From a virus, in the IMG/VR virus record IMGVR_UViG_3300037222_000046, positions 1 to 34,256 of that record: DNA of 34,256 nt; one strand, 5' to 3'. The position numbers and the translations under genes were made by a program. A model generated the notes under the pieces. The model had not been told where the DNA came from. It saw only the letters and a program-made list of their open reading frames with translations, and ran no database searches. Below, one piece after another: positions 2,099-30,846 of this stretch. Every line of letters starts with the position of its first letter. Position 1 is the stretch's first letter.

Positions 2099-3022
2099 AT
2101 GGCGATTTCAGAAATTAAGGCGAAGGAACGGACTGGCTACCTGGGCGGCTCCGACATTGCCGCTGTCTTGGGCTTGTCGCGCTGGCGCACTCCGCTTCAA
2201 CTGTGGGGAGAGAAAACGGGGAACATCATTCCAGAGGACATTTCCGGCAAGCTCCATGTTCGCTTGGGGAATAAGTTGGAACAGACGGTTTGTGACCTGT
2301 TCCAAGAGGAAACGGGAAAGAAGGTTGCGCGGGTCAATGATACCTTGATTCATCCGGTCCATTCATTCTTGCGCGGGAACATAGATCGTCGAATCGTCGG
2401 GGAGAAAGCCGTCCTAGAGGCCAAGACGACGAGCGCATGGAACGCGAAGCAATGGGAAGGCGAGGAAATCCCCCAGGAGTATTTGATTCAGACGTATTTC
2501 TACATGGAGTTGATGGGCGCGGATCGCGGCTACGTCGCTTGCCTAATCGGGAATCAGGACTTCCGCGTCAAGGTCTTAGAGCGCGATGACGTTCTCCAAA
2601 AGCAGATGATCGAGAAGGCGGTAGACTTCTGGACGCGCTACATCGTCCCGAAGGTCATGCCGTCTTTCATTACGTCGAAGGACGCCGACACTTTGTATAA
2701 TTTGTTTCCCCTCGGAGAAGAAGGCGAACCCATCGAGCTAGGCGACGAGGCAAACGCGCTTATCGAATCCATCCAGGCCGCGAAAGAGGACGCCAAGGCC
2801 ATCGAGACGCTGAAAGACAAGCAAGAGAATGAGTTGCGCGTCTTGCTCAAGGAACACGCCGAAGGCTTCACTGATAAGTTCAAGGTTACATGGAAGAACC
2901 AAAAGACTCGCCGCATGGACCTCCCGAAAATGCGTATCGAGGTTCCCGAGATTTGCGCCAAGTACGCCGAAACGACGGAGAGCCGAGTCCTCCGAATCGC
3001 CCCCTTAAAAAAAACGAAGTAA
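2099..3022 (+). CDS. YqaJ-type phage recombination exonuclease
   Basis: A 307-residue protein of the YqaJ/lambda-exonuclease family (PD-(D/E)xK fold). It degrades one strand of linear duplex DNA to leave 3' overhangs for the annealing protein. Visible motifs are the N-terminal YqaJ signature LGGSDIAAVLGLSRWRTPLQ (residues 15-34), GNKLE near 57-61, the catalytic block GNIDRR with D96, and LEAKT with E107 and K109, then QEYLIQTYFYMELMG (126-140) with the conserved Gln. The C-terminal 90 residues are helical and coiled-coil-like. GAGGGGG lies just before the ATG. The gene immediately precedes recT, the standard pairing of these two activities. Confidence 0.93.
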   Translation: MAISEIKAKERTGYLGGSDIAAVLGLSRWRTPLQLWGEKTGNIIPEDISGKLHVRLGNKLEQTVCDLFQEETGKKVARVNDTLIHPVHSFLRGNIDRRIVGEKAVLEAKTTSAWNAKQWEGEEIPQEYLIQTYFYMELMGADRGYVACLIGNQDFRVKVLERDDVLQKQMIEKAVDFWTRYIVPKVMPSFITSKDADTLYNLFPLGEEGEPIELGDEANALIESIQAAKEDAKAIETLKDKQENELRVLLKEHAEGFTDKFKVTWKNQKTRRMDLPKMRIEVPEICAKYAETTESRVLRIAPLKKTK

Positions 3023-3031
3023 GGAGCCACC

Positions 3032-4090
3032 ATGTCTACCGCTGATTCCGTAAAGAACGCACTCGCAAAGCCGTCCGCGACCCCGACGCCGCTTCAAGAC
3101 TTGATCCAGTCCAGCGTCAAGGAGTTGGGCCGCGCCCTCCCGGCGCACTTGTCACCTGACCGTCTTGTCAGGATCGCGCTCACGAACATTCGGCTTAATC
3201 CAGGGCTGGCGAACTGTTCCCCGGCGTCTTTCCTGGGGGCTCTGTTCACGCTGGCGCAACTTGGACTTGAACCTGTCGCGGGGCGGGCCTACTTGCTCCC
3301 GTTCAAGAACAGCAAGAAGATGCCCAATGGTCAATGGGTTACGTCCCTTGAAGTCCAAGCCATCGTCGGATATAAGGGGCTTGTGGACCTGTTCTACCGA
3401 CATGAGAAGGCCGTCATGCTGACTTGGGGCGTCGTCAAGGAAGGCGATGACTTCGACTACCGCAAGGGAACGGGGCAGTTCCTTCACCACAAGCCGGGGC
3501 AGAAGCGCGGGGCCGTCCTGGGATATTGGGTCGCGGCCAAGCTGGCGAACGGTGGGGAGCCGTTCGAGTATATGAGCGCGGATGACTGTATGGCGCATGG
3601 ACGCTCACACTCGAAAACCTGGGACAAGACGAAGGGAGAATTTAACCCGTCGTCGCCGTGGTCCAAGGAACCGGAGGCAATGTGCCTCAAGACGGTTCTG
3701 ATTCAGTTGGCGAAGCTATTGCCTCTCTCCATGGAGCTACAGACGGCGATTGCGAACGACGAAACTTCCCGCGACTTCCGCAACGGCCTGGGGAGTGCCT
3801 TGGACATCCCTCCTACGACGAACTGGGAGGAACCGAAGCCGGGAGATATCATTGACGGGGAAGTCGAAGAAAACGCCGGGGCCGAGACGTTGCCTGACTC
3901 CACGGAAACGGAACGCTTCATCAACGCCAAGCAGCGCGGACTTGTCCACGGTAAGTTCAAGGCGACGGGCCAGCCCGAGACGGTCTTGCGCGACTACCTG
4001 ACGGACTCTTTCGGCAAGGAAAGCACCTCCGCGATTCCCGCCGACAAGATGGATCAGGTCTTAAAGTGGATCGAAGGACTCAAGGCTTAA
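3032..4090 (+). CDS. recT: RecT-family single-strand annealing protein
   Basis: A 352-residue RecT family protein that coats single-stranded DNA and anneals complementary strands, working with the exonuclease encoded 9 bp upstream. The conserved core is clear: SPDRLVRIALTNIRLNPGLA (41-60), SFLGALFTLAQLGLEP (66-81), RAYLLPF, then AIVGYKGLVDLFYRH and GVVKEGDDFDY. The C-terminal 90 residues are acidic and less conserved, and probably form the partner-interaction region. AAGGAG precedes the ATG. The length is slightly above the family norm (about 270-330) because of the tail. Confidence 0.95.
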   Translation: MSTADSVKNALAKPSATPTPLQDLIQSSVKELGRALPAHLSPDRLVRIALTNIRLNPGLANCSPASFLGALFTLAQLGLEPVAGRAYLLPFKNSKKMPNGQWVTSLEVQAIVGYKGLVDLFYRHEKAVMLTWGVVKEGDDFDYRKGTGQFLHHKPGQKRGAVLGYWVAAKLANGGEPFEYMSADDCMAHGRSHSKTWDKTKGEFNPSSPWSKEPEAMCLKTVLIQLAKLLPLSMELQTAIANDETSRDFRNGLGSALDIPPTTNWEEPKPGDIIDGEVEENAGAETLPDSTETERFINAKQRGLVHGKFKATGQPETVLRDYLTDSFGKESTSAIPADKMDQVLKWIEGLKA

Positions 4091-4521: not shown

Positions 4522-5103
4522 ATGACCACTAAGACCGCCGCGAATCTCGACACTCTGATTACCGCCGATTGGTTGCGCGGACATTCTGCCTGTAACGACG
4601 GGTACAAATGGGCCTGCGGAGTGATCGTTGACGGAATGACGCTTGACGAGTTCCTCCCGGAGTTTGAACGCGCCGATTGGATGCTATGGATTTTGAAACG
4701 TGCGGCGACACTGGACAAGATTACTTATGTCCGAATCGCCATTAAGTGCGCGGAGTCTGTCATTGATATTTACGAGAAGAAGAACCCGAAAGATGAGCGT
4801 CCGAGGAAAGCGATTGAAGCGGCGATTGCATACGTCAAAGACCCGAGCGAGAAGAACCGTAAAGCCGCCGCCTACGCCTACGCCGACGCCGACGCCGCCG
4901 CCTACGCCTACGCCGACGCCGCCGCCGACGCCGCCGCCTACGCCGCCGACGCCGCCGCCGCCGCCTACGCCGCCGCCTACGCCGCCGCCGACGCCTACGC
5001 CGCCGCCTACGCCGCCGCCGACGCCTACGCCGCCGACGCCGCCGCCAAAAAAATGATTCACAAAAAACTGTGCGCGATGATTTTGAAGGAATTAGGACTT
5101 TAA
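4522..5103 (+). CDS. putative Imm5-like protein with Ala/Tyr/Asp repeat tail
   Basis: A 193-residue protein. The N-terminal 110 residues carry motifs common to a family often annotated as putative immunity protein: SACNDGYKWA near 22-31, then IAIKCAESVIDIYEKKNP and RPRKAIEAAIAYVKDPSEKN. From about residue 114 to 175 the protein is only Ala, Tyr and Asp, before a short basic helical end (KKMIHKKLCAMILKELGL). AGGAG lies 8 nt before the ATG. Family members frequently carry such alanine-rich helical repeats. The gene follows promoter module A and the tRNA-like element and may be co-transcribed with them. The family assignment is from memory of motifs; the function is unproven. Confidence 0.75.
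   Translation: MTTKTAANLDTLITADWLRGHSACNDGYKWACGVIVDGMTLDEFLPEFERADWMLWILKRAATLDKITYVRIAIKCAESVIDIYEKKNPKDERPRKAIEAAIAYVKDPSEKNRKAAAYAYADADAAAYAYADAAADAAAYAADAAAAAYAAAYAAADAYAAAYAAADAYAADAAAKKMIHKKLCAMILKELGL
4861..5046 (+). repeat. low-complexity GCC/TAC/GAC codon array
   Basis: About 62 consecutive codons that are almost exclusively GCC (Ala) interspersed with TAC (Tyr) or GAC (Asp). A 30-bp unit is tandemly duplicated at roughly 4969-5028. The uniform codon choice indicates nucleotide-level expansion (slippage or recombination) rather than protein-level selection alone. Confidence 0.9.
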
Positions 5104-16586: not shown

Positions 16587-17612
16587 ATGACCAAGATACT
16601 GACGCTTCTCCTCCTGACCCTGGCTTCGACCGCTTTTTCACAGGTTATACCCGCTGGGGATAACTCCTACAACGGCCTTCTCGTCAATGAGGCTGGCCTG
16701 TCCTACAACAACACCTACGTCATGGACCTGTCCAAGTACGACGCCTCCAAGGTATCGGCGCAGGTTCTCTACGGTTCGACCACGTTCTCAGCCTCGACCT
16801 TCACTGACGGGGCGCAATCGACCGGGAGCATCACCATTTCGAGCTTCTCGGCCATCACCGGGAAAACCCTGACGATTGGAACGCTTGTCCTGAAAGGCGG
16901 TACGAGCTTCGCCACGATCACGAGCAACAACGCCACGGCTACGGCTCTCGCGGCGGCGATCCAGGGCGCGGGGCTTGGCCTTACGGCTTCGGCTTCGGGG
17001 GCCGTCGTGTACGCGACCTCGACCATCAACGGGGCTTCCTTCAACTACTCCGTGGTTTCCTCGACCCCTGCGGCGATGACCGTCTCTGCCGGGGCGATGA
17101 CGGGCGGGGTTACTCCTTCCTTCGCGCTCAATGGCTCGGCTATCAGCATCACCGGACATGGCTACACGCTCGGCCTTCCCCTGCTCTACACCGCCAATAG
17201 CGCGTCCATCGGCGGGCTGACGGATCAGACGACCTACTACGCCATCCCGCTTGGGGCGAACCGCGTCGAACTCGCTACGACCTCGGCAAGAGCCGTCGCA
17301 ATCCAGCCGCTTGTCTTTACGTCTACGACGACCCAGCTTGTCGCTGACGCCCCGGCGTTCTCAGTCCCGGCCATCACCGGAACGCCGACTTTCACCTGGC
17401 AGGCGTCAAACGATAACGTTAATTGGGCGACGACTCTCACGACCGGGACAGTCACCGTGGGGTCGTACACGAGCGGGAACGCTGACGGACTGTTTGACTT
17501 CGGAGTGTTCAATTTCCGATGGCTGCGGCTCAACGTGGTTTCCCCGACTCAGGGCGGGTTATTCTTGCAGGTTCCGGTCACGGTAAAACAAGACGGCATC
17601 GGTCGGTTTTAA
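16587..17612 (+). CDS. beta-rich fibre-like structural protein with Sec signal peptide
   Basis: A 341-residue protein. It begins with a textbook signal peptide (KILTLLLLTLASTAFSQ, cleavage expected after the Ser/Gln near residue 19). The rest is Ser/Thr/Gly/Ala-rich beta structure with phage structural motifs such as GHGYTLGLPLLYTANSASIG followed by LTDQTTYYAIPLGANRVEL, which are common in virion proteins. A signal peptide on an apparent virion protein is unusual: it could be a secreted or surface-displayed product, or an adaptation for periplasmic assembly. The gene sits between portal and capsid genes. The next gene follows in the same frame after TAA. Confidence 0.7.
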   Translation: MTKILTLLLLTLASTAFSQVIPAGDNSYNGLLVNEAGLSYNNTYVMDLSKYDASKVSAQVLYGSTTFSASTFTDGAQSTGSITISSFSAITGKTLTIGTLVLKGGTSFATITSNNATATALAAAIQGAGLGLTASASGAVVYATSTINGASFNYSVVSSTPAAMTVSAGAMTGGVTPSFALNGSAISITGHGYTLGLPLLYTANSASIGGLTDQTTYYAIPLGANRVELATTSARAVAIQPLVFTSTTTQLVADAPAFSVPAITGTPTFTWQASNDNVNWATTLTTGTVTVGSYTSGNADGLFDFGVFNFRWLRLNVVSPTQGGLFLQVPVTVKQDGIGRF

Positions 17613-17624
17613 GGGGGTAGTGTT

Positions 17625-18224
17625 ATCGCTACCGCAATAACGTTCAACGGCGCGTCATACTCGGTCCCTGCCTATAACGACTCGGGCTGGGCGCAAGGCG
17701 CAGGCAACCTCTCGTCTTACCTTGTGGCGATAGCCGCTGGAACGCTACAGACGACCGGGGGAACCTTCACGCTGTCCGCGAACGTGAATTTCGGGGCTAC
17801 CTATGGCATCCTCGCGGCCTACCTGACCTCGGTTACTGCCTCCCCCGCGACCGCTGGCGTCATCCGCTTGGCCCTGACCGATGAGATAGCCTGGGGAGCG
17901 TCAAACCTCGCTTTGACCGTCGCCAGTTCGCGCCTTAAGTTCAACGGGAATACTCTGCTCATCGCCTCGGACCTCCCCGGCTCGGTGACGGGGAATCGGG
18001 AAGTCTACATCGCGGGAACGGCCCTGAACAACTACACCGGAAGCCTCACCGTCGTCAACATGGTCGGCACCTACGTTGCCAACGGCGTCAACCTCAACGT
18101 GTTCGTCAACGGCCTCTGTCAGGATGTGACCTCGGACTATACCGAGACAAGCACGACGAGCTTCACGTTCACCGGGAACCTGAACGTCGGAGACAGAATT
18201 TCCGTCCGTTGGACCACATACTAG
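17625..18224 (+). CDS. fibre-like structural protein with apparent ATC start
   Basis: Read as 199 residues from ATC at 17625, six bases after AGGGGGT (17612-17618). The frame from there is MATAITFNGASYSVPAYNDS followed by GWAQGAGNLSSYL. I recognise this as the normal N-terminus of a common phage beta-structured virion protein, which usually begins at ATG. The first conventional start, GTG at 17724, would remove 33 conserved residues and has no Shine-Dalgarno. GTT at 17622 is the only other nearby candidate. The C-terminus (LNVFVNGLCQDVTSDYTETS, then VGDRISVRWTTY) is a classic fibre-tip repeat motif. Confidence 0.7.
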   Translation: MATAITFNGASYSVPAYNDSGWAQGAGNLSSYLVAIAAGTLQTTGGTFTLSANVNFGATYGILAAYLTSVTASPATAGVIRLALTDEIAWGASNLALTVASSRLKFNGNTLLIASDLPGSVTGNREVYIAGTALNNYTGSLTVVNMVGTYVANGVNLNVFVNGLCQDVTSDYTETSTTSFTFTGNLNVGDRISVRWTTY

Positions 18225-18232
18225 AGGACAAA

Positions 18233-19159
18233 ATGAAAATCATCCTCGCTCTTTTCCTGACGGCATCGGCCAACGCGGCGGGCGTCCTCATCAATGGCAA
18301 CCAGATCAACCCGCAGACGGCGATCTCGATCTCGTCGCTCACCGTGACCGGGGCGACCGGGGCCGTCGTGACGAGCACCGTAAATGCGGCCCTGTTTATC
18401 GGAGCTGGCACAAACTTGACCGGAACCGCCGCCGCCCTTACGGCCGGGCACGTCACGACGAACGCCAACCTGACGGGCGACGTGACCTCTTCGGGGTCGA
18501 ACGCGACGACCGCCGCCGCGACCCAGGCGAACATCAAGGTTCTGTCGGGCCTGACGACGATTAGCAACCCGTACACCGCTACGTCCAGCATGACGAACAC
18601 GAGCGCGGGCGGCATCCTCGCCTCGTCCAGCATTACGGCCAGCGCGTTCTTCGGGGATGGGTCGCATCTGAGCGGCGTCGCGGCCAACTCGACGACGACA
18701 TGGACTGGTAGCAATACGTTCACGGGCGCGGTCCATATCTCGACGGGGTTCACGATCAATTTCGCGTACAACCTCGGCTATACGACGACGCAGAGTTCGT
18801 TACTGCTGGCCGTCACGGGGTCAACCGGGAGTTTCGTCGTACAAGGTACGACGGTTGCCTGCTGGTTCGCAGGCGATATCCAAGACAGCCTACTCAACCA
18901 AAGAGTATTTATGAGCGCCGGAGTGGATGGGGGGCCGCCAGCAGGAACGACGGTAGCACACGGATTCATCGCTGATGACGCCCCCGATGCTGGAAGCGAT
19001 TTTAATATGAGTTTCAACAGAGAGTTCCAGGTAACAGCGGGAGTTTCGCACACCTTCTATTTTGTGATCGCCGCCAATGGCGGAACGGTCACGCTTGGAG
19101 AAGGCGGGGCAAACAGTTCTGTCTCTCAATTCGGATGCCGCGAGGTCCCGTCAAGATGA
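18233..19159 (+). CDS. fibre-like protein with signal peptide
   Basis: 308 residues from the ATG at 18233, which is preceded by AGAGGA; an in-frame TTG at 18209 lies within the previous gene. The N-terminus KIILALFLTASANAA is a Sec signal peptide, cleaved near residue 16. The body is low-complexity Thr/Ser/Ala beta structure with ASSSITASAFFGDGSHLSGV, a pattern found in fibre and surface proteins. The C-terminal domain is less repetitive (HTFYFVIAANGGTVTLGEGG, ending in QFGCREVPSR). Host-surface recognition is a reasonable but unproven role. Bases 1-4 of a tiny frame overlap its stop. Confidence 0.65.
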   Translation: MKIILALFLTASANAAGVLINGNQINPQTAISISSLTVTGATGAVVTSTVNAALFIGAGTNLTGTAAALTAGHVTTNANLTGDVTSSGSNATTAAATQANIKVLSGLTTISNPYTATSSMTNTSAGGILASSSITASAFFGDGSHLSGVAANSTTTWTGSNTFTGAVHISTGFTINFAYNLGYTTTQSSLLLAVTGSTGSFVVQGTTVACWFAGDIQDSLLNQRVFMSAGVDGGPPAGTTVAHGFIADDAPDAGSDFNMSFNREFQVTAGVSHTFYFVIAANGGTVTLGEGGANSSVSQFGCREVPSR

Positions 19160-19203
19160 CCACCCGCATCCTCGCCGTCGCGATTTGGAAAGGAGGCGTA
19201 TGA
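19156..19203 (+). CDS. possible 15-residue coupling peptide
   Basis: ATG at 19156 overlaps the upstream stop and the frame ends in a TGA that overlaps the ATG at 19200. It encodes MTTRILAVAIWKGGV and contains the next gene's AAAGGAGG. Termination here would deliver ribosomes to that start. It may also be the relic of a longer gene. Confidence 0.25.
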   Translation: MTTRILAVAIWKGGV

Positions 19204-19724
19204 AACAAGTCCTCGTCTTGATGCTGTTGGCCGCGCCGTCGTTCGCCGTACCGTATGTCCAGGGTCTTTGGACGAAGGGGAATCCTGTTTATATGACTGG
19301 CGGCATGACCTTCACGACTGACAAGCTGAGCGCGGACGCGGCGGTTACTTCCGTCGCCGTCGCCTATCATCCGCTTTCTGCGGGGTCTTTTTGGGACCTC
19401 CCTTCCGTGGCATCGCATGAGCCAGACTGGATCAAGCCAATACTACCCCGCGAGTCCTGGGCCTGCTCCATCGGCGGGGCTTGGAACTCAAGCGCGAAGG
19501 CTGGCGTCATCGGTTGCGGCCTCAACTTGCTTGACACCGTTCGTCAGTGGGCCTCTACCGCTCTATTGCAATCCAGCAATGGAAGCGTTAGCGGGCTCGG
19601 TGCTGCCATCGCCCCAGGCAAAGGCCCCGTCAACCTCTACGCTGCCCGCATTGAGCAGAACTCGGCAGACAGGCCTCTCGTTTTAGTTCCGCGATGGATG
19701 TTCGCGGCCTCATACGGATTCTGA
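19200..19724 (+). CDS. secreted or virion-associated protein with signal peptide
   Basis: 174 residues from the ATG at 19200, with a strong AAAGGAGG seven bases upstream. KQVLVLMLLAAPSFA is a short Sec signal peptide. The mature protein has a YVQGLWTKGNPVYMTGG start, two Cys residues (ESWACSIGG, VIGCGLNLL) that could form a disulfide, and a C-terminus VNLYAARIEQNSADRPLVLV. No family was recognised. It is the third signal-peptide protein in this block, so export of the whole set is suggested. Confidence 0.6.
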   Translation: MKQVLVLMLLAAPSFAVPYVQGLWTKGNPVYMTGGMTFTTDKLSADAAVTSVAVAYHPLSAGSFWDLPSVASHEPDWIKPILPRESWACSIGGAWNSSAKAGVIGCGLNLLDTVRQWASTALLQSSNGSVSGLGAAIAPGKGPVNLYAARIEQNSADRPLVLVPRWMFAASYGF

Positions 19725-19728
19725 ACTA

Positions 19729-19757
19729 TTGCTTTAATCGAACGTCCGTTCTATAAT
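19729..19757 (+). promoter_or_regulatory. likely promoter for scaffold and capsid genes
   Basis: TTGCTT at 19729-19734, 17-bp spacer and a perfect TATAAT at 19752-19757, in the short gap before the scaffold-like gene. GGGAG follows at 19760-19764. Expected +1 is close to 19764, so the leader would be very short. Confidence 0.55.
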
Positions 19758-19772
19758 AAGGGAGAACACAAA

Positions 19773-20714
19773 ATGGCACTAGAAGCTACGCAAGCAGCAC
19801 CTACCGGACAAACGGCTGACCCCAAGGCCGCGCCTGCCGTTGCGGGAGCCGCCGCGAACGCGGAGCCCACGCAGGATTTCGTCGTTAATGGAAAGACGGT
19901 CAAGCTGACCGCCGCGCAGGTAAAGACCGCCGTGCAGAAAGGGCTGTTTGCGGACGGCAAGCTCAAGAGCATGGACGTTCTGGCCAAGTCCAGCCAGGGC
20001 ATCATCAACGCCCTCAAGACCCCGCAGGGCCTCCTTGGACTTCTCAAAGACCCGTCGCTCGGCAACTCGCCCAAGGAAGTCTTTAAGGCCCTCATGGCCT
20101 CCGATGTCATCGACGACGAACTGAAGGAAACCATGAGCCAGTGGGTCTATCAGAACGTCGTCCAGAAAGCGAAACTGACTCCCGAGGAAATCGAGCGGGA
20201 CAAGAAGCTCTCCGATTACGAGCGGCTGAAGAAAGCCGAAGAGGACCGCAAGCAGAAAGACATGACGGCCCAGCAGCAGGCGCAGGTCAATCAGGTCTAC
20301 CAAGCCGTCCGTGCCGAAGTGACGAAGCAAGTCCTCGCTGACAAGACCTTCCCGCAGACGGAGGGCTCCATCCGTGCGGTCGTCGAGAAGCTCCGCGTGA
20401 TGAACAAGCAGGGGGCTCCGATCACGGCTGAAACCGTGACAAAGGCCCTGGGGCTGGTCAAGAAGGATCACATCCTCCATCAGCAGACCATGCTCGACGC
20501 CATCGTTGACCCCGAGGAGCTTATCGCTTTGGTCGGTGAAGCCCGCGCCCTCAAGATCAGTAAGGCCCTCGTCGCTCGAATCCAGGCCAAGCAGAAAGGC
20601 AAGGCCAAGACCGAGACGAAGGAAGTGGAAGGCGAGCCGCGCAAGAAGATAACCGAGGTGCTTGAGGAAAAGTACGGGCGCAACAAGCACGGCTATCGGA
20701 CGATGGAACTGTAA
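19773..20714 (+). CDS. putative scaffolding protein
   Basis: A 313-residue, Ala/Lys/Glu-rich helical protein directly upstream of the major capsid gene, where scaffolds lie. The N-terminal 35 residues are Ala/Pro/Thr-rich and disordered; DFVVNGKTVKLTAAQVKTAV is a recurring phage scaffold-like start. Residues 130-190 (EEIERDKKLSDYERLKKAEE, DMTAQQQAQVNQVYQAVRAE) are long charged helices. The C-terminus is strongly basic (RIQAKQKGKAKTETKE, then YGRNKHGYRTMEL), as in scaffold domains that bind coat protein. The SD is GGGAG and a promoter precedes it. Confidence 0.75.
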   Translation: MALEATQAAPTGQTADPKAAPAVAGAAANAEPTQDFVVNGKTVKLTAAQVKTAVQKGLFADGKLKSMDVLAKSSQGIINALKTPQGLLGLLKDPSLGNSPKEVFKALMASDVIDDELKETMSQWVYQNVVQKAKLTPEEIERDKKLSDYERLKKAEEDRKQKDMTAQQQAQVNQVYQAVRAEVTKQVLADKTFPQTEGSIRAVVEKLRVMNKQGAPITAETVTKALGLVKKDHILHQQTMLDAIVDPEELIALVGEARALKISKALVARIQAKQKGKAKTETKEVEGEPRKKITEVLEEKYGRNKHGYRTMEL

Positions 20715-20861
20715 AACGATTTTACGGAGATCGTTGGCCGCGATTCTACGCGATACCAAAGCCAACGATAACGGACACGATAATGGTACGCCTACTTGAG
20801 TGTCTTGCTGGGAATGTAAACCGCTACGGCGGTAAATTCTTGACAAGGACGGTACACTCAT
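20715..20861 (+). promoter_or_regulatory. 147-bp gap before major capsid gene with hairpins
   Basis: AACGAT/ATCGTT (20715-20720, 20730-20735) directly follows the scaffold stop, and CGCG-ATTCTA-CGCG lies at 20739-20752. CGATA occurs three times between 20751 and 20783. TTGACA at 20840 has no -10 at the right distance. AAGGA (20845-20849) is 12 bases from the capsid ATG, an unusually long spacing. The stretch probably holds leader structure controlling capsid synthesis. Confidence 0.35.
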
Positions 20862-22166
20862 ATGGCCGCAACTTCGATAGAGTCGGTGACGGGAAGCCTT
20901 AATGGAAATTTTAAGAACACCTACGGCAGCAAGATCCAGGACCTGGTGCCCGAGTCTGACATTCTCTACCGCAACGACCGCATCAAGTTCGTTGACAAGA
21001 AAGGCCGAGAGGGTTTGCAGTTCAACCAGCCCGTTCTCTTGTCTCTCCCGTCGTCCGCGACTTGGGGCCTGAACGGCCCCACGCTGAACGCGGTCATCGG
21101 GATGCAGATGGGCAACGCGACCGTGACCGGCTCGGCCATCACGATGCGCGATGTGCTGTCCTACGACTCGGCGGCTCGTGCGGCTGGGTCTGACGCGGCG
21201 TTCGAGGCGACCGTCGGGCTCGTCCTCAAGACGCTGTTCAAGGCTCACGCGAAGTTCGCGGAAATCGACCTCCTGTACGGCAACGGCGGGATCACCTACG
21301 GCAACAACGTGGCGATCTTCCAGTCCTCGGCGGTCGTGACTTCCTCGGCCAACGCGGCGATTACCGTCTCATATGGAACTTGGGCTCCCGCCCTCCTGTC
21401 CGGCTTCGAGAACGCCAAGCTCGACGCTTACGAAACCGGAGTCGGTCAGATCAACACGAACGCGGCGTTGCAGATCGTCTCCGTGAACGTGGTTCCGGCG
21501 TCCAGCACGGTCGGCGGCGTCGTCACCGTCTCCGGCAACAGCTCGGACATCACCGCGCTCGTCGCCACGAACGGCACGAACGTGGACTACTACTGGTACG
21601 GTGCCTACGGCAACAACATGGTCGGCATCAAGGGAATCCTGGCGAACACCGGGACGCTGTTCGGGATCAGCGCGGCGTCGTACTCCCTGTGGCAGAGCAA
21701 CACGTTCGATTGCGCTTCCACGCAGTTGACTTTCAGCAAGTTGCAGCTGGCGGCGGCTTTGGCCGTCTCTCGCGGACTCGATGAGAGCCTCCTGTCCCTC
21801 GTCTCCCCGGCGACGTTCGCGGACCTCGTGAACGAGCAGGCGGGTGCGCGACGGTACGACTCGTCCTACTCGTCCAAGAAGAACGAGAACGGCTCGGAAG
21901 CCCTGACGTATTGGGGACCGAACGGAAAGATCGAGGTTGTGCCTCACATGTTCGTCCACCAGGGCGAGGCTTTCCTCGTCCCGCCGTCGGACCTCATGAA
22001 GGTCGGACCTCTGGACCACATCAGCCCGACGCTTCCGGGCATCGATGGGGATATCTTCTTCCAGAGCCCGACTCAGGCGTCGTATGAAATCCGGCTGTTC
22101 TCGGACTTCGGCCTGATCAACATGAGCCCGGCCAAGTCGGTGCTGGTGAAGAGCATCACCAACTAA
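20862..22166 (+). CDS. major capsid protein
   Basis: A 434-residue protein following the scaffold. It has the composition and layout of an HK97-fold coat protein: N-terminal arm SLNGNFKNTYGSKIQDLVPE, a helical E-loop/spine region (AAFEATVGLVLKTLFKAHAK, FAEIDLLYG), a long inserted Ser/Thr/Val-rich beta domain (about residues 190-270, probably surface-exposed), and a C-terminal P-domain with LSLVSPATFADLVNEQAG, EVVPHMFVHQGEAFLVPPSD and DFGLINMSPAKSVLV. The family was inferred from position and pattern. Its upstream ribosome binding site is weak in spacing for so abundant a protein. Confidence 0.88.
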   Translation: MAATSIESVTGSLNGNFKNTYGSKIQDLVPESDILYRNDRIKFVDKKGREGLQFNQPVLLSLPSSATWGLNGPTLNAVIGMQMGNATVTGSAITMRDVLSYDSAARAAGSDAAFEATVGLVLKTLFKAHAKFAEIDLLYGNGGITYGNNVAIFQSSAVVTSSANAAITVSYGTWAPALLSGFENAKLDAYETGVGQINTNAALQIVSVNVVPASSTVGGVVTVSGNSSDITALVATNGTNVDYYWYGAYGNNMVGIKGILANTGTLFGISAASYSLWQSNTFDCASTQLTFSKLQLAAALAVSRGLDESLLSLVSPATFADLVNEQAGARRYDSSYSSKKNENGSEALTYWGPNGKIEVVPHMFVHQGEAFLVPPSDLMKVGPLDHISPTLPGIDGDIFFQSPTQASYEIRLFSDFGLINMSPAKSVLVKSITN

Positions 22167-22170
22167 GCAA

Positions 22171-22275
22171 ATGACCAAGATTCCGATGTTTCGCCATCGG
22201 GGCCGGGGAGTCTTACCGTTGCATCTCCCTTCGGGTTTCATCCGGCACTTTTTTAATCAGGAGTCAAACAAATGA
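22171..22275 (+). CDS. possible 34-residue protein after capsid
   Basis: ATG at 22171 begins four bases after the capsid stop and ends in an ATGA overlap with the gene at 22272, which supports translation. The peptide is basic and aromatic (MFRHRGRGVLPLHLPSGF). The same bases contain the hairpin CCGATG-TTTCGC-CATCGG (22183-22200) and a T6 run near 22247, so the region could instead be an untranslated attenuator after the capsid gene. Confidence 0.4.
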   Translation: MTKIPMFRHRGRGVLPLHLPSGFIRHFFNQESNK

Positions 22276-22805
22276 GCAGCATCAACCGCTGGGTTATTTC
22301 AGACGACACGAACGGAGTCTCGCCCGTTGGACTTAGCCAGTCGGACGCGGCCCTAGTCCTCCGTAAGGCGGAAGATCACCTTGGGCGATGCGCTCAGGGC
22401 GCGGCCAGTTCCAACCTCTCGCTGGCATGGAACCCCGTCGCGGCTCAGGCCACGGTCACGGCGACCGGGACCGGGACCAACGGCGACACGCTGACTATCG
22501 CGGGCGTCGTCATCACCATGGAAACCTCGGGGGCTACCGGGAACCAGATCAATATCGGCGGCTCGGTCACGGCCCTTATGAATCAGGTCACGGCCCTGGT
22601 CAATGCCGCAGGCTCGTCTTGGGCGGGGATTTGCACGGCCAAGAACGTGGCCGGAGTCCTGACGCTGACGGCGGCGATTCCTGGCACCATCGGCAACGGC
22701 TTGGCCCTGGCGATCAGTTCCACGGCCCTGACGATTACTCACGCCTGGGGCGCGTCCGTCGCCGGAACCGAAGGAACCGCCGCTGTTTTCTCGATGGGCA
22801 AGTAA
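22272..22805 (+). CDS. virion structural or decoration-like protein
   Basis: A 177-residue protein after the capsid gene. Residues 55-130 have the beta motif NGDTLTIAGVVITMETSGAT followed by NQINIGGSVTALMNQVTALVN, widespread in phage structural proteins. The N-terminus SSINRWVISDDTNGVSPVGL is less typical. Position suggests head decoration or completion. CAGGAG precedes the ATG at 22272. Confidence 0.65.
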   Translation: MSSINRWVISDDTNGVSPVGLSQSDAALVLRKAEDHLGRCAQGAASSNLSLAWNPVAAQATVTATGTGTNGDTLTIAGVVITMETSGATGNQINIGGSVTALMNQVTALVNAAGSSWAGICTAKNVAGVLTLTAAIPGTIGNGLALAISSTALTITHAWGASVAGTEGTAAVFSMGK

Positions 22806-22814
22806 GGGGGAATC

Positions 22815-23129
22815 ATGGACCGCGCATCAATGTTCGATAAAGCCTTGGCTCGGATGGCTGACGACCTCGACGACGTTGAGGGGTCCTCGGCCATGTCTCA
22901 CTCCATGGACGAATGTCCCGACCCGCTTACTTGCACTCAGCACGACAGCGAAGCGGGGGATGCTCTCTCGGGCGATAAGCCTGCTGTTTCTATCGAGATT
23001 CACAAGCTCGGTATGCCGACTCTCGACGGGGCCAAAGAGGACAAGCCGAGTCTAGACGACAAGGGCGAGGAAGGACAGGAACTGAGCTCCGAGGACGCGG
23101 ACATACTTCGCAAGCTGCTCAAAGCGTAA
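22815..23129 (+). CDS. acidic hypothetical protein in head module
   Basis: A 104-residue, very acidic protein (DDLDDVEGSSAM, KGEEGQELSSEDADILRKLL) with three Met-Asp rich turns and two Cys (DECPDPLTCTQHD). No domain was recognised. AAGGGGG precedes the ATG. Small acidic proteins in this position can be head-completion chaperones, but nothing in the sequence shows it. Confidence 0.6.
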   Translation: MDRASMFDKALARMADDLDDVEGSSAMSHSMDECPDPLTCTQHDSEAGDALSGDKPAVSIEIHKLGMPTLDGAKEDKPSLDDKGEEGQELSSEDADILRKLLKA

Positions 23130-23138
23130 GGGGGCCGC

Positions 23139-24077
23139 ATGGCATCGTTCGCGGGAAACTGCCTCGTAGACTACTTGGCAAGCCAGGTGAGTCTAAAATG
23201 CTTGAACCCGTCCAGCCAGAACACATATGCCCCGGCTGACGTTGTTACGCTCATGGATGGGGAATTGTCGGCAGGCGTCATTCCACTTCTAAAACGTTGT
23301 CAGCAAGAGTACTTCGTATACAACGTTGACGTTACCATCGTCCAAGGACAGTCCTCCTACACGATGCCGACGCGGGCCATCGGCAACGCCGTCCGCGATG
23401 TCGTCTTGGTCGATTCAAACGGGAACGAAGTCGCCTTGAATAACTTGATGCGCGAGTACATCAAGGTTCAGTTTCCGTTTACCTACGTCCCGGCGATTTG
23501 GGCCTTCGGGATGTACACGACCGCAAATGAAATAAACCTGTACAACACGATGATCCAGAGCTACACCGCCTACAAGCTCCGATTCATCACCGAACGTAGA
23601 CCTGGCGGCTTGACGCTCTCGACGAACTGCGGGCAGGTCACGGCGATAACCGGGAATGTCGTCACGTTGTCCTACGTCGATCCGGCCTGGACCACGGCGA
23701 CGACGTTTGACGTAATCAATCCCCTGCCCCCGTTCCAGTCGATAGCGGATGACGTTTCGATCACGCTGATTTCCGGCTTCAACGTGACGTTTACGACCAT
23801 CCCCATGGGTCTTGCAAAGGGACAATGGGTTTGCCCCGCGATGCTCTCCTGCATCCCGCAGATTCCGTATGAATGGTTCCCTCTGCTCACGGAAATGACC
23901 GTGGCGACTCTCGCGGAAGGGCTCGACCAAAGCCAACTCCTCGCTTCCGCAAAGGCCAAGATCGAGAAGTTCGAAGCGAATGCCTTGGCTTTGGTTCGAC
24001 CTCGCGTGACGGGCTCGCCGAGGGTCATCAAAAATAGAGATTGGGGCGGCGAAGGCCGCTGGCTTGGGTCCCGGTAA
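23139..24077 (+). CDS. head-tail connector-like structural protein
   Basis: A 312-residue protein with the plan of podovirus adaptor proteins: an N-terminal helical part with DGELSAGVIPLLKRCQQEYF, a beta insertion (residues 75-220), and the C-terminal helices PYEWFPLLTEMTVATLAEGL and LLASAKAKIEKFEANALALV, which end near VTGSPRVIKNRD. This C-terminal pattern is typical of proteins that join the portal to the tail hub. The stop shares a base with the next ATG (TAATG), and AAGGGGG precedes its own start. Confidence 0.65.
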   Translation: MASFAGNCLVDYLASQVSLKCLNPSSQNTYAPADVVTLMDGELSAGVIPLLKRCQQEYFVYNVDVTIVQGQSSYTMPTRAIGNAVRDVVLVDSNGNEVALNNLMREYIKVQFPFTYVPAIWAFGMYTTANEINLYNTMIQSYTAYKLRFITERRPGGLTLSTNCGQVTAITGNVVTLSYVDPAWTTATTFDVINPLPPFQSIADDVSITLISGFNVTFTTIPMGLAKGQWVCPAMLSCIPQIPYEWFPLLTEMTVATLAEGLDQSQLLASAKAKIEKFEANALALVRPRVTGSPRVIKNRDWGGEGRWLGSR

Positions 24078-26626
24078 TGTACTACGGAGTCCTTGACTTC
24101 AAGGGCCTCTACACATACGCCAATAATCTTGGCACCCAAGCCCCCCCTGGTTCTGCCTCCGTCGCCAACAACGTGAACGCAAACGAAATCGGCAACGCCA
24201 CGACTCGCCGGGGGAATGATTTTTACTCGGCGCAGCAGTTCGCCGTCACCAATGGCTTTATCACTAAGTTATGGTGCTATGAAAACGTCCTGTTCGCCTC
24301 TTTCAACGGCGGGCAGTTCGCTCAAGACAACGGCTCGGGAACGTGGACTACTTACGGCAGCGGATTTCTCATGCTCCCGCCCGTCGGCGGGAAACTCCAT
24401 CAGATGCTGGCCGGGGGAAATTCCTACTTCACCACCTCCAACGGGATGTACAAGCTTAGCGGGATCAACTCGACGCCCCCTATGCCAGCCGGGGCACCGC
24501 CCGCCCTCGATACCGTCATCACCGTCGGGTCTATGATTTCCTCGGGCTTCCTCAACGCGCAGAGTCAGTGTGCCTACTCCATCGTTTGGGGGTATACGGA
24601 TGAATCGAATCTGCAGATCATCGGTGCGCCGTCAAACGCCGCCTATGCGTCCAACACGCAGACCGCAGGGCCATCCAACAACGCAAATACCACCGTGGTA
24701 TTCAGTATCCCCCCATTCGTGGAGCAAAATTCTGCTCTGCCATGGTTTTATCAGATTTACAGAACCCCGAACACCGGGAGCCTGACTGTCCCGCCGGGGA
24801 ATAACTATCAACTCGTCGCGCAGTTGAATGTCGCGGCTGGCGACCTGACGAATCACTACATTTCCTACGCCGATTCTGTCCTCGATTCACTCTTGGGCGC
24901 GGACCTCTACACCGACGCGGGACAGCCGAACGTGGGGAATCCTTTTAACCAACCCCCTCTTGCCCAAGATGCGGCGTACTTCTCCTCGATGGCTTTCTAC
25001 GCCAACTACTCGACGATGCAGAGCGTATTCCTGACGCTCGATGCGGTAGGGGCTACGTCCGGTATCCAATCCGGCGACACGATCACGATCACGGACAGCG
25101 GTTCAGCGACTTCATACGTCTACACCGCAGGCTCGTCCAATGTCCCTTCGACTCGTCATTTCGCCGTCTACACTTCCGGCACTCCGTCGGTCAATATCCA
25201 GACCACGGCTCAAAACCTTGTCTCCGTCATCAACCAGGACCCGAACAACACGCTTTTCACGATCCAGTATGTCTCTGGATACTCAAACCTCCCCGGCCAG
25301 ATGCAGATTTTCGCGCAGAACCTCTCTCAAGCCTTTTTCTCCGTCGTTTCCTCGCGGACTACTTGCTGGACGCCTGCACTCCCGTCCTCTGGAACGGCTT
25401 ACGCCTCCTCAAACGTCACGGTTCAGAACGGACTCGCTATCTCCGTCATCGCCCAGCCGGAATCCTGCCCGCCCTCTTTCCTTTTGCCCGTCGGCTCTCC
25501 AAATTTCCCGATCAAAAGGCTCATCCCGGTCAGAACTGCCCTCATCGTCGTCAAGCCAGAGGAAGGCGTCTTTGAAGTCACCGGGACCTCGCCTAGCACC
25601 TTGACAGTGACTGCCCTTGATACGACGGCCTTCATCAACGGTTCAGAAACCCTCGCGGCTCTCAACAACTCGGGCTATTTCTTCACGACCCAGGGCGTCA
25701 TGCTCGTCAATGAGTCGGGATGTGAGATCATGAGCCGGAATATCCAAGGGGATATCCTGGCCCTGTCCTCCTACTCGTATCCGAACTTCGCTTCTCTCTC
25801 TTTTGGGCTCGGCTATCAGTCGGACAATGCGTATATCCTTTTCTGCCAAGCCCTGCCGACGGACAACTACTCGACGATTCAGTACCGTTACAACTGGATC
25901 ACGCAAGCCTGGACCACTTGGGACATCCCATGTACTGCCGCCGTCATCAACACCGCAGATGACCGAATGTACCTCGCAACCCCGCAAGGCTACATCTTGC
26001 GCGAGAGAAAGACTTTCACGAACCAGGACTACGCTGACGAAGTGATTGCCGTTACCATTTCCAGCATCGGGACCGGGACCATGACGCTGGCCAGTTCCCT
26101 CAACGTGAGCGTCGGGGATCAACTCAGCCAAGTCAACGGGGGGATCACCTATACCTGTTTCGTCACCGCGAACAACGTGGCGACCAACGTGGTAAATGTC
26201 GATTCAACGACTGGGTTTGTCACCGGAGCGGCAAGTGACACCACGGCGATCAATTCTACGATCACCTTCATGCCGACCTCTTGCGGCTACCCCGCGTTCA
26301 TAAAGAAATTCACGACCTGGAATTTCGAGTTTGCAAAAGTCTCCTTCACGAACTGCACGGCTTCATTCTCGACCGATTTCTACCCAAATTCCGAATCCGT
26401 GCAGATCGTCCCGCATATCTCTGGACTGTGGGGCACGTTCCCATGGGGCACTAATCCCTGGGGCGTCACTCAGCAGAATCTACAGCCGATCACGACCTAC
26501 GCGACGAAGAATACGAGCATCGGCCATTGGGTCAACCTCACGCTTAATCTACAGCAGGCTTTCAGCGGATTCAGCTTGAGCGGCTATCAAATCTTTTTCA
26601 GCTTCCTCGGGGAACGGTCAAGATGA
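24077..26626 (+). CDS. large tail hub or nozzle-like protein
   Basis: An 849-residue protein from the ATG at 24077; upstream in-frame codons lie within the previous gene. It is strand-rich with NNVNANEIGNATTRRGNDFY, MLPPVGGKLHQMLAGGNSYF, LIPVRTALIVVKPEEGVFEV and SFGLGYQSDNAYILFC. The repeated aromatic blades suggest a beta-propeller, as in the T7 gp12 / P22 gp10 nozzle proteins of short-tailed phages. The size also fits. The identification is by architecture and position, not by an established signature. Its stop overlaps the next ATG. Confidence 0.65.
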   Translation: MYYGVLDFKGLYTYANNLGTQAPPGSASVANNVNANEIGNATTRRGNDFYSAQQFAVTNGFITKLWCYENVLFASFNGGQFAQDNGSGTWTTYGSGFLMLPPVGGKLHQMLAGGNSYFTTSNGMYKLSGINSTPPMPAGAPPALDTVITVGSMISSGFLNAQSQCAYSIVWGYTDESNLQIIGAPSNAAYASNTQTAGPSNNANTTVVFSIPPFVEQNSALPWFYQIYRTPNTGSLTVPPGNNYQLVAQLNVAAGDLTNHYISYADSVLDSLLGADLYTDAGQPNVGNPFNQPPLAQDAAYFSSMAFYANYSTMQSVFLTLDAVGATSGIQSGDTITITDSGSATSYVYTAGSSNVPSTRHFAVYTSGTPSVNIQTTAQNLVSVINQDPNNTLFTIQYVSGYSNLPGQMQIFAQNLSQAFFSVVSSRTTCWTPALPSSGTAYASSNVTVQNGLAISVIAQPESCPPSFLLPVGSPNFPIKRLIPVRTALIVVKPEEGVFEVTGTSPSTLTVTALDTTAFINGSETLAALNNSGYFFTTQGVMLVNESGCEIMSRNIQGDILALSSYSYPNFASLSFGLGYQSDNAYILFCQALPTDNYSTIQYRYNWITQAWTTWDIPCTAAVINTADDRMYLATPQGYILRERKTFTNQDYADEVIAVTISSIGTGTMTLASSLNVSVGDQLSQVNGGITYTCFVTANNVATNVVNVDSTTGFVTGAASDTTAINSTITFMPTSCGYPAFIKKFTTWNFEFAKVSFTNCTASFSTDFYPNSESVQIVPHISGLWGTFPWGTNPWGVTQQNLQPITTYATKNTSIGHWVNLTLNLQQAFSGFSLSGYQIFFSFLGERSR

Positions 26627-27024
26627 GCGCGAACAATTTACCGCCTTCCTACAGGTTCGACTTCGGAGACTACACTTCTCTTGGGGACACGTTCCAGAAA
26701 TTCCTATCGAATCTCAATGTCTACACATTGGCCGTCTACAACATCCTCAACAAGGGCATCGGCTTCCAGAACCTACAGAGAGTCGTCTACACCGTCAAAG
26801 TCACGGCGGGGACCACGACCCCCGTTGTTTTCGTGAACCCTCTGCCCATAACGCCGTCCGGCGTCGTCGTTTGCAATGTCCAGCTTGTCGGAAAGACCAC
26901 TGTGGCGATAACGAGCGCGGTATCGGCGGCGAACTGGACCTTCGATGGCCGATCGATCACGGTGCTTGATGTGACCGGACTGACTTCGGGGAGCGTCTAT
27001 ATGCTTTCGATGGAAATTTTCTGA
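26623..27024 (+). CDS. tail-associated structural protein
   Basis: A 133-residue protein. The N-terminus NLPPSYRFDFGDYTSLGDTF leads to a helix (LSNLNVYTLAVYNILNKGIG), and the C-terminal half is a beta domain (VVYTVKVTAGTTTPVVF, TVAITSAVSAANWTFDGRSI). Similar small proteins follow nozzle genes in short-tailed phages. Its function is unknown. It overlaps the previous gene by ATGA and ends just before the Shine-Dalgarno of the ATC-start gene. Confidence 0.6.
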   Translation: MSANNLPPSYRFDFGDYTSLGDTFQKFLSNLNVYTLAVYNILNKGIGFQNLQRVVYTVKVTAGTTTPVVFVNPLPITPSGVVVCNVQLVGKTTVAITSAVSAANWTFDGRSITVLDVTGLTSGSVYMLSMEIF

Positions 27025-27040
27025 GCAGGAGGACAACCAT

Positions 27041-28498
27041 ATCGCTTTCCTACAGCCCAACGACGTAACCCCGGCCCCTCTCGCTCCCCAGGCCAATCAA
27101 GCCCCCATCGCGGCGGGAGGTGCGGGAGTCGCTGGCGCAAAGGCGGCGGCTACCCCCGGACAAAATACCCCGGCTCAACCCTCGGCGCAACTCTCGGCTT
27201 ACCTCGGAGCCAACCAACCCCAAGCGGCGGCTCTCGGTCAGAACGTGGCGGGAACTCTCAGCGCACAGACTCAGGCCGCTGGAAACGCGATCCAGCCCGC
27301 CGTCGATATCTACACTGGACAGCAGTACACCGTCCCGACCGATGCCGCGACCAATTCAGCCGTTGCGTCCTCTCCGTCATCTCTGACGCCAACCCAACAA
27401 GCCAGCTATAAGGCTGAACTAGGAGACGCGAACGCCGCGCCGAACTCGGCAAACACCTTTGAGGCTTCCGCTGTCTATCAGCCTGTCTCTGCCGGGATTC
27501 AAAACGCCGTCGAACAAGCGAATCTCTGGAACGCCGGGAACAACACCGCCGACCTCTCGACGGCCCTCTCCCCTTTCGAGGGGCCGAGTGCCACGACCGG
27601 AGACACGACCCTTGATTCCCTGCTCCTGTCTCAGTCGCCGGGGGCTTACGGCCAGATTCAGCAGGCCGTAGCACCTGCGGCGACCCTTCAAAGCCAACTC
27701 GCGGCTGGAACCTCGACCGCTGACGCCTCTTTGCAGAACGCGATAGCCCAAGATCAGGCGGCTACGGGGGCCGCGACCGGGGCGGCTCAGAACTACGCTA
27801 CCGGACTTACGAACTACCTGAACAATGCCGTAACGACAAACCAGGCGGCTCAGACCGCGCAAGAGAGCGCAAACTCGACGATTTACGCGGACGCTCAATC
27901 AGGGAACTTGACGGCGGCAGACGCTCAAGCCATGGGAATCCCGGCAAATCAGGCGGCGGCATGGGCGACGGCTTACAACTCCCTGAATCCGGCTATCTCG
28001 GCAGAAAACTCCCTGGCGATGTCTCCGACGCGCTCGATTGGTCCGACGGGGCTCACCCCGCTCAACCTCTCAAGCTACCTGACGCAGGGGGCCGCTGGAC
28101 CGACGATTGACGCGGCCAGCGTTGCGACTCCGCAGAATTATTCCGATGTCGCGGCCCTTCAAGCCCTGCTCGGACAAAACAGCAACGTCAATTTGCCGAT
28201 CAACGCTTCGACGGCGAACCTGGCCGGGACCGGACTTGGACAGAACGCCTCGGACACGTTCAACTCGACGGGGGCGGCTTCGGCCCTCAGTCCAGAGGAA
28301 GTCGCCGCGAATACTCTCCTCGGACATATTTCTGCGATGGCGAGTTACGATCCGTACCAAACCCAGGCGCAGGCCAACGTAGGATCACAGGACACAGCGA
28401 ACACGAATCAAATCATCGCCTATCTACAGCAGTTGCTTGGACAGCAGGGAACCGGGATCACCCCCCCTAGCGGCGGCGGCTATACGACCAACGTGTAA
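27041..28498 (+). CDS. Ala/Gln-rich internal virion-like protein with apparent ATC start
   Basis: 485 residues read from ATC at 27041, seven bases after CAGGAGG. The frame is open back to 26984 without ATG, GTG or TTG; the first conventional start is GTG at 27245, which would lose 68 residues and has no Shine-Dalgarno. The N-terminus reads MAFLQPNDVTPAPLAPQANQ when ATC is taken as Met, a normal phage style. The whole protein is Ala/Gln/Asn/Thr-rich and probably helical, with repeated NQAAQTAQESAN-like segments. Position before two further such proteins suggests an ejection or internal core protein. Confidence 0.7.
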   Translation: MAFLQPNDVTPAPLAPQANQAPIAAGGAGVAGAKAAATPGQNTPAQPSAQLSAYLGANQPQAAALGQNVAGTLSAQTQAAGNAIQPAVDIYTGQQYTVPTDAATNSAVASSPSSLTPTQQASYKAELGDANAAPNSANTFEASAVYQPVSAGIQNAVEQANLWNAGNNTADLSTALSPFEGPSATTGDTTLDSLLLSQSPGAYGQIQQAVAPAATLQSQLAAGTSTADASLQNAIAQDQAATGAATGAAQNYATGLTNYLNNAVTTNQAAQTAQESANSTIYADAQSGNLTAADAQAMGIPANQAAAWATAYNSLNPAISAENSLAMSPTRSIGPTGLTPLNLSSYLTQGAAGPTIDAASVATPQNYSDVAALQALLGQNSNVNLPINASTANLAGTGLGQNASDTFNSTGAASALSPEEVAANTLLGHISAMASYDPYQTQAQANVGSQDTANTNQIIAYLQQLLGQQGTGITPPSGGGYTTNV

Positions 28499-29763: not shown

Positions 29764-30846
29764 ATGGCTCTGACCTCGAAGCAAAAGGAATCCTTGCATG
29801 AGCATTTCCGTAACCGGGAATTGTACGACCCTTCCAAGGTGGCGCATCAAGAGGTTTCGACCTTCCTTCCCAAGACCATGGGGCACTCCAAGGATGATGA
29901 TGAATTGTGCGAAGGCGGCGACGTTAAAGGCTACGACGAAGGCGGCTCCGTCACTGGCGATGATTTCACCGTAGACGGCGGGGCCTCTGACACCGCCAAG
30001 GATAACGGCAACCCCCTGACGCTGGCGACCGACGGAGATCAAGGTGCAGTAGCGGCCCTCGTCAACAAGATGGGTCCTCCGCAGATTCCTCCGCAACTGC
30101 CTCCCGCAGCCCCTCCAATCCCCTCGACGATGCCCGCCACGCCTTCGCAGGCTGGCCCTGAGCCCATGGACCCCGAAGAGGAGCAAGCCGCTAACGCCGC
30201 CCTCCTCGCGGCTAATGATGGCTCTTCGCCTCAGCAGAAGAACCACGCAGGACTCGCTCCCGACCAATACGACCAGCTCGTCGCGGCCCTCTCCAAAGGC
30301 CCGAGCGGCGGTCAAATCGCGGCCTCTGGACTTGGAGCCTTGGCCGACGGGATCATGCAGGGAGTCGCTCGGGCTGGAAATCCCGGCTTCCAAAAGGGCA
30401 TAGACGAACGCGCCCAACAGCAGAAGCAGAACCTCATCAACGCGCTTCGGGAGAAGTACGAAGCCGGATTCAAGGGCCAGGAACTCGGCATCAATCAGCA
30501 GCGGGCCAATGACGAAAACACGCGGGCGAAGGCGGCTCTAAAGTCGGAAGAAGCCAGGGCGGCGGCAGAGCGGGCCGTCCAACTCTCTGGACAGCAGGCA
30601 GAAACGGCCAGAGCCAAAGCGGCCCTAGGCGTTCAGCAGGGGAAGGACGTTTCCGAGGAAAACAAGAACGTCCTCGACCAGGAAAACAAGGCCGGGACCT
30701 GGCTCGGGAAACTTCAAGGACTCGCGGCCCCCAATCCCGCCCTCGTCGCGCGAGCGCAAGGGAAAGGAGTATCGGCCCCGCAGGTCAAGGTGATCGGCGG
30801 CGTCACTTATCATCAAGTCGGCGGCAAGTGGTACAAGGGGCAATAG
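29764..30846 (+). CDS. internal virion-like protein
   Basis: 360 residues from the ATG at 29764, seven bases after GGGGAGG. Acidic Gly-rich part (CEGGDVKGYDEGGSVTGDDF), a Pro-rich linker near 105-135, a Gly/Ala helical stretch (GGQIAASGLGALADGIMQGV), and a long coiled coil (NENTRAKAALKSEEARAAAE, QQAETARAKAALGVQ) precede a compact tail with GVTYHQVGGKWYKGQ, a small beta motif often found at the end of virion proteins. The modular plan matches internal or ejection proteins of short-tailed phages. Confidence 0.65.
   Translation: MALTSKQKESLHEHFRNRELYDPSKVAHQEVSTFLPKTMGHSKDDDELCEGGDVKGYDEGGSVTGDDFTVDGGASDTAKDNGNPLTLATDGDQGAVAALVNKMGPPQIPPQLPPAAPPIPSTMPATPSQAGPEPMDPEEEQAANAALLAANDGSSPQQKNHAGLAPDQYDQLVAALSKGPSGGQIAASGLGALADGIMQGVARAGNPGFQKGIDERAQQQKQNLINALREKYEAGFKGQELGINQQRANDENTRAKAALKSEEARAAAERAVQLSGQQAETARAKAALGVQQGKDVSEENKNVLDQENKAGTWLGKLQGLAAPNPALVARAQGKGVSAPQVKVIGGVTYHQVGGKWYKGQ

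Follow-up and report, generated by a model that had tools for sequence, protein, structure and literature searches.

Two genes in the virion module of a phage contig probably begin at ATC codons preceded by strong Shine-Dalgarno sequences

Results

Two virion-module frames without a conventional start codon

The window, that is, the whole stretch of DNA analyzed here, is a single contig of 34,256 bases from an uncultured phage (IMGVR_UViG_3300037222_000046). Its right half forms a virion module, which reaches ~32275 and shares its order of genes with one relative, IMGVR_UViG_3300047462_000043 (referred to as G001). The other relatives compared were G003 (also labelled L010), G004 (L011; IMGVR_UViG_3300043313_001413) and G005 (L012). 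The closest cultured phage, as judged by the terminase, the portal-position gene and the gene at 24077, is MWH-Nonnen-W8red at 24-27% identity; in the stretch compared it lacks both of the genes described below. The features relevant to this study are as follows.

11710: terminase, virion module
14489: portal-position gene, virion module
16587-19159: cluster of tail-fibre-like genes, virion module
17611-17618, plus strand: Shine-Dalgarno sequence AAGGGGGT of gene 1, 6 nt before the ATC and overlapping the upstream stop TAA (17610-17612)
17625-18224, plus strand: gene 1, virion module, 199-aa tail-fibre/spike-like protein when the frame is read from ATC
17625-17627, plus strand: ATC start codon of gene 1; the relatives have ATG (G001, G003 and G005) or ATT (G004) at this codon
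17724-17726, plus strand: GTG, first in-frame conventional start of gene 1, 33 codons after the ATC; Shine-Dalgarno pairing of -1.0 kcal/mol, unusable
20862: SU10-like major capsid protein (weak Pfam/PHROG matches)
23139: adaptor-like gene, virion module
27027-27032, plus strand: Shine-Dalgarno sequence AGGAGG of gene 2, 8 nt before the ATC and just past the upstream stop TGA (27022-27024)
27041-28498, plus strand: gene 2, virion module, 485-aa Ala/Gln/Thr-rich protein, 57% identical to its G001 homologue and in the same gene order
27041-27043, plus strand: ATC start codon of gene 2; the relatives have GTG (G001) or ATG (G004 and G005) at this codon
27245-27247, plus strand: GTG, first conventional start in frame 2, 68 codons after the ATC; Shine-Dalgarno pairing of -6.5 kcal/mol

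Outside the virion module, the window carries a gene cut by the contig edge (1-690) with tandem LPVLTSVGGSLxIxADAK repeats, and G001 has a homologous repeat gene at the corresponding end. A recombination module with a YqaJ exonuclease and RecT recombinase pair occupies 2099-4090. The gene at 4522-5103 has an Imm5-like immunity-protein match (E 1e-5), and in its 3' part, a low-complexity repeat, alternative frames give long Pro/Thr or Arg runs. The 849-aa gene at 24077 starts with ATG in the window and with TTG in its G001 homologue (L002 1927), a further start-codon switch in this group.

Both flagged frames lie inside the virion module. Neither has an ATG, GTG or TTG near the point where its protein begins, as the original prediction held, and the ATC-GCT codons are exactly where it placed them; it was also right that conventional initiation would cost 33 and 68 residues. 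Its estimate of 6-7 bases between the Shine-Dalgarno sequence and the ATC holds for gene 1 and is too short for gene 2. Frame 1 opens past the in-frame TAA of the upstream gene, with only GGG GGT AGT GTT preceding the ATC, and frame 2 opens at 26984. When the window was screened for coding signal extending well before any conventional start, only gene 1, gene 2 and a gene truncated by the contig edge were found.

The gene 1 protein is 71% identical to its G001 homologue over the full length, and the C-terminal part of the G003 homologue has a weak match to a Bacillus phage tail spike (E 2e-3). The AlphaFold model of gene 1 is of low confidence (pLDDT 42) and was left out of the argument. A degenerate-pattern search with the DSGWAQG block of the family returned the known members, two unrelated proteins and nothing further. 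Gene 2 matched no family in Pfam, PHROG or NCBIfam. No match to either protein was found by tblastn against GenBank phages, and protein searches of genome contigs returned no relative. An exact DNA pattern for a near-identical contig gave nothing at the 27041 site; at 17625 its sole match, L007, was rejected as a chance agreement with the leader (TAAGGGGGTAGTGTTATGGCT) of an unrelated phage.

The ATC codons occupy the start position of homologous genes

In alignments with the relatives, ATG or GTG falls on exactly the two ATC codons. For gene 1 the aligned codon is ATG in three relatives and ATT in the fourth, and the alignment with G001 is free of gaps ([ATC]ATAITFNG and MPTNVTFNG). The gene 2 N-terminus, [ATC]AFLQPND, corresponds to MAFVDPSD in G001, MAFVNP in G004 and MAFVTP in G005. 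The non-standard start is mostly not kept among the relatives of either gene, the closest of which have ATG or GTG.

Codon-level conservation changes at these positions. Across codons 2-33 of gene 1, differences from G001 number 8, 4 and 17 at codon positions 1, 2 and 3 (11 synonymous, 8 not), whereas the 11 codons upstream of the ATC show 7, 9 and 7 with none synonymous. The equivalent comparison for codons 2-68 of gene 2 gives 24, 18 and 45 (25 synonymous, 28 not), a weaker but still coding-like pattern; the boundary of coding constraint is less sharp than in gene 1, and the N-terminus of gene 2 diverges faster.

The ATT-starting homologue of gene 1 comes from G004, a distant relative assembled independently of the window. 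This gene has no in-frame conventional codon upstream of the ATT, and the next one lies 61 codons later. Compared with G005, differences after the ATT are 23, 9 and 43 at the three codon positions (29 synonymous) and before it 9, 5 and 7 (none synonymous). Its Shine-Dalgarno sequence, AGAGGTGG, lies at the same distance from the start as in G005. Because gene 1 and the ATT homologue both show this codon-level step in conservation, translation would be expected to begin at or next to their ATC and ATT codons. On G004 itself (~2400-2999, plus strand), an inserted ORF resembling HNH/endonuclease VII separates the adaptor gene from the tail-gene homologue and extends across the leader in which the Shine-Dalgarno sequence lies.

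This arrangement invites the reading that a missing start is the trace of an intron or of a mobile endonuclease whose insertion displaced the initial codon, since the ATT follows the stop of the inserted HNH-type ORF by one base. However, no endonuclease ORF lies upstream of either ATC in the window, an Rfam search of the window gave no match to an intron family or any other, and even after the insertion in G004 the SD-like AGAGGTG and its spacing still match G005. We regard such an origin as the least probable of the readings weighed here.

Conventional starts further downstream and fusion to the upstream gene were judged against the same alignments. The GTGs at 17724 and 27245 are the first canonical in-frame codons and the ones that gene callers would pick, but starting there would drop the most conserved block of the gene 1 family (YSVPAYxDSGWAQGxGNLSSYL) and the conserved MAF[LV]xP N-terminus of gene 2, both of which are under coding constraint. 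Their Shine-Dalgarno pairing is weak or absent and their surroundings are structured, and we therefore consider initiation at these codons very unlikely. Equally doubtful, if not slightly more so, is the production of fusion proteins by read-through of the TAA at 17610 (gene 1) or by a frameshift near 27000 (gene 2). Gene 1 is indeed in frame with its upstream gene, and frame 2 overlaps its upstream gene by ~40 nt. In G001, though, the gene 1 homologue has its own ATG in a frame that differs from that of its upstream gene, gene 2 starts at a GTG directly past a stop, and both window genes have a strong Shine-Dalgarno sequence of their own. That both proteins begin at their ATC codons, as originally proposed, is well supported by homologous sequences, Shine-Dalgarno position and codon-level conservation.

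The non-standard starts have strong ribosome-binding sites

Shine-Dalgarno strength was calculated as pairing with the 3' end of 16S rRNA and compared across 40 starts in the window, taken from our own gene list. Gene 1 ranked first of the 40 (-12.6 kcal/mol) and gene 2 ninth (-10.3 kcal/mol), while the ATT start in G004 ranked sixth of 21 (-10.5 kcal/mol). Taken together, the two ATC starts and the ATT start have stronger Shine-Dalgarno sequences than conventional starts (one-sided p ~0.02, from small numbers). Strong sites are not exclusive to non-standard starts, as members of G005 and G001 with ATG or GTG have them too, and the spacing in front of gene 2 in G005, where the start is ATG, is also 8 nt. 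The RNA around 17625 has a fair degree of structure (-21.6 kcal/mol; mean, -14.0). Weaker start codons have been reported alongside stronger Shine-Dalgarno sequences (PMC5622118, PMC13009471), and the strong sites at the ATC and ATT starts fit these reports.

Sequence error is a less likely explanation of the ATC codons

The main competitor to genuine ATC initiation is that the phage has ATG, or that the assembly mixes strains, with ATC being a consensus error or minor variant in this one contig. Most relatives do have ATG at the start, both sites differ by an identical G-to-C substitution within ATGGCT, and a genuine ATG-to-ATC switch is extremely rare: among 61,358 ancestral AUG starts in bacteria, as judged from annotated starts, one changed to AUU and none is listed as changing to AUC (PMC5622118). 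Random error should nevertheless also create nonsense codons, and none was found in the 23 genes with a G001 orthologue (5,689 codons). In this gene set 1,733 single changes could produce a stop and 161 a start loss, which gives a probability of ~0.007 (~0.7%) that, out of two gene-breaking changes, both are start losses, assuming uniform substitution and independence. Systematic error is disfavored by the persistence of ATGGCT, which occurs 10 times per strand, about as expected, and is intact at the starts at 29764 and 13892. An independently assembled relative has, moreover, ATT at the aligned codon of gene 1. The earlier argument against two independent base errors gains support from the conditional test and from this relative. 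Error in the contig is in our judgment a less probable explanation that still deserves weight, and real AUC initiation at both genes is the most likely reading, somewhat favored overall.

Discussion

The start positions and Shine-Dalgarno sequences are direct results of the analysis. We infer that the AUC is present in the phage population and that initiation would occur there with Met. The occurrence of ATC at the position where relatives have their normal start, together with ATT in G004, suggests that the phage probably initiates inefficiently at non-standard codons. Both genes would in this case be translated from ATC as a near-cognate start, with the strong Shine-Dalgarno sequence directly behind the upstream stop setting the initiator fMet-tRNA on the AUC. 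Codon and initiator anticodon would pair at two of three bases, and the mismatch at the third would be expected to make initiation slower and open to rejection by host IF3, a factor that disfavours weak codon pairs (PMC10158994). The ATC starts lie 12 nt (gene 1) and 16 nt (gene 2) past the upstream stop, and the ATT in G004 lies 1 nt past the stop preceding it; these short distances make delivery of ribosomes by translational coupling likely. No virus-encoded tRNA was found in the window, which excludes a special initiator tRNA.

The gene 1 and gene 2 proteins would presumably be made at a lower rate than from AUG. Output from AUC relative to AUG is 0.1-0.3% in E. coli and 5-20% in two clostridia (PMC9680021), and the strong Shine-Dalgarno sequences may partly offset the weak initiation. 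It is plausible that ATC limits the dose of virion proteins, as the original prediction suggested, and a minor virion protein would be in keeping with the tail-fibre-like character of gene 1. A reduced dose, control by or sensitivity to IF3 and an adaptive value are candidate properties of the two starts. The ATC changes could just as well reflect nearly neutral drift that a strong Shine-Dalgarno sequence makes tolerable. Three non-standard starts were found among ~100 genes on five contigs, with two in the gene 1 family; the rough chance of this is several percent, so the coincidence is suggestive only. The broader idea that this tail-protein family repeatedly drifts to AUC or AUU behind strong Shine-Dalgarno sequences, as a standing IF3-based valve that keeps virion proteins substoichiometric, is speculative and in our estimate unlikely.

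If AUC initiation at these genes is real, phages are able to begin virion-region genes at codons that standard gene callers do not consider, and N-termini of such proteins in metagenomic phages would consequently be mis-annotated. The two genes would also allow a test, by a natural difference of a single base, of how AUC initiation behaves behind a strong Shine-Dalgarno sequence outside E. coli, and of the effect of IF3 level on phage assembly. Initiation at AUC and AUU is already known; what is noteworthy here is its probable presence in virion-region genes of a phage and probable recurrence in one tail-gene family. A limited literature search found no paper describing phage virion genes that start at ATC.

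ATC initiation had originally been described as rare, with the ATT of infC as the known parallel. The start of infC, which encodes translation initiation factor IF3, is indeed ATT in E. coli, but in Streptomyces it is ATC (PMC5472188), so an ATC start is not unprecedented. The phage genes would share with infC a near-cognate AUH codon and the same kind of inefficient initiation, but infC is cellular and autoregulated, whereas these virion-module genes lie outside any IF3 feedback loop. In Streptomyces, IF3 represses the GTC start of sigR and thereby sets a stoichiometry (PMC5472188). The likeness is that of a rare start codon keeping one operon product low, although the codon there is GTC rather than AUC and the regulation is demonstrated, whereas here it is predicted. 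Near-cognate starts with extended Shine-Dalgarno sequences, a combination also seen at 17625, occur in S. aureus cvfC1 (AUU) and ccpN (AUA) (PMC13009471). In those genes use of the start has been measured and is conserved across species, whereas the starts described here are known from sequence and are mostly not conserved. Phage T4 baseplate gene 26 has an internal AUU start and thus resembles the present case as an example of near-cognate initiation in a virion gene of a phage. The internal start of gene 26, however, yields a shorter product, whereas gene 1 and gene 2 would have no start other than the ATC.
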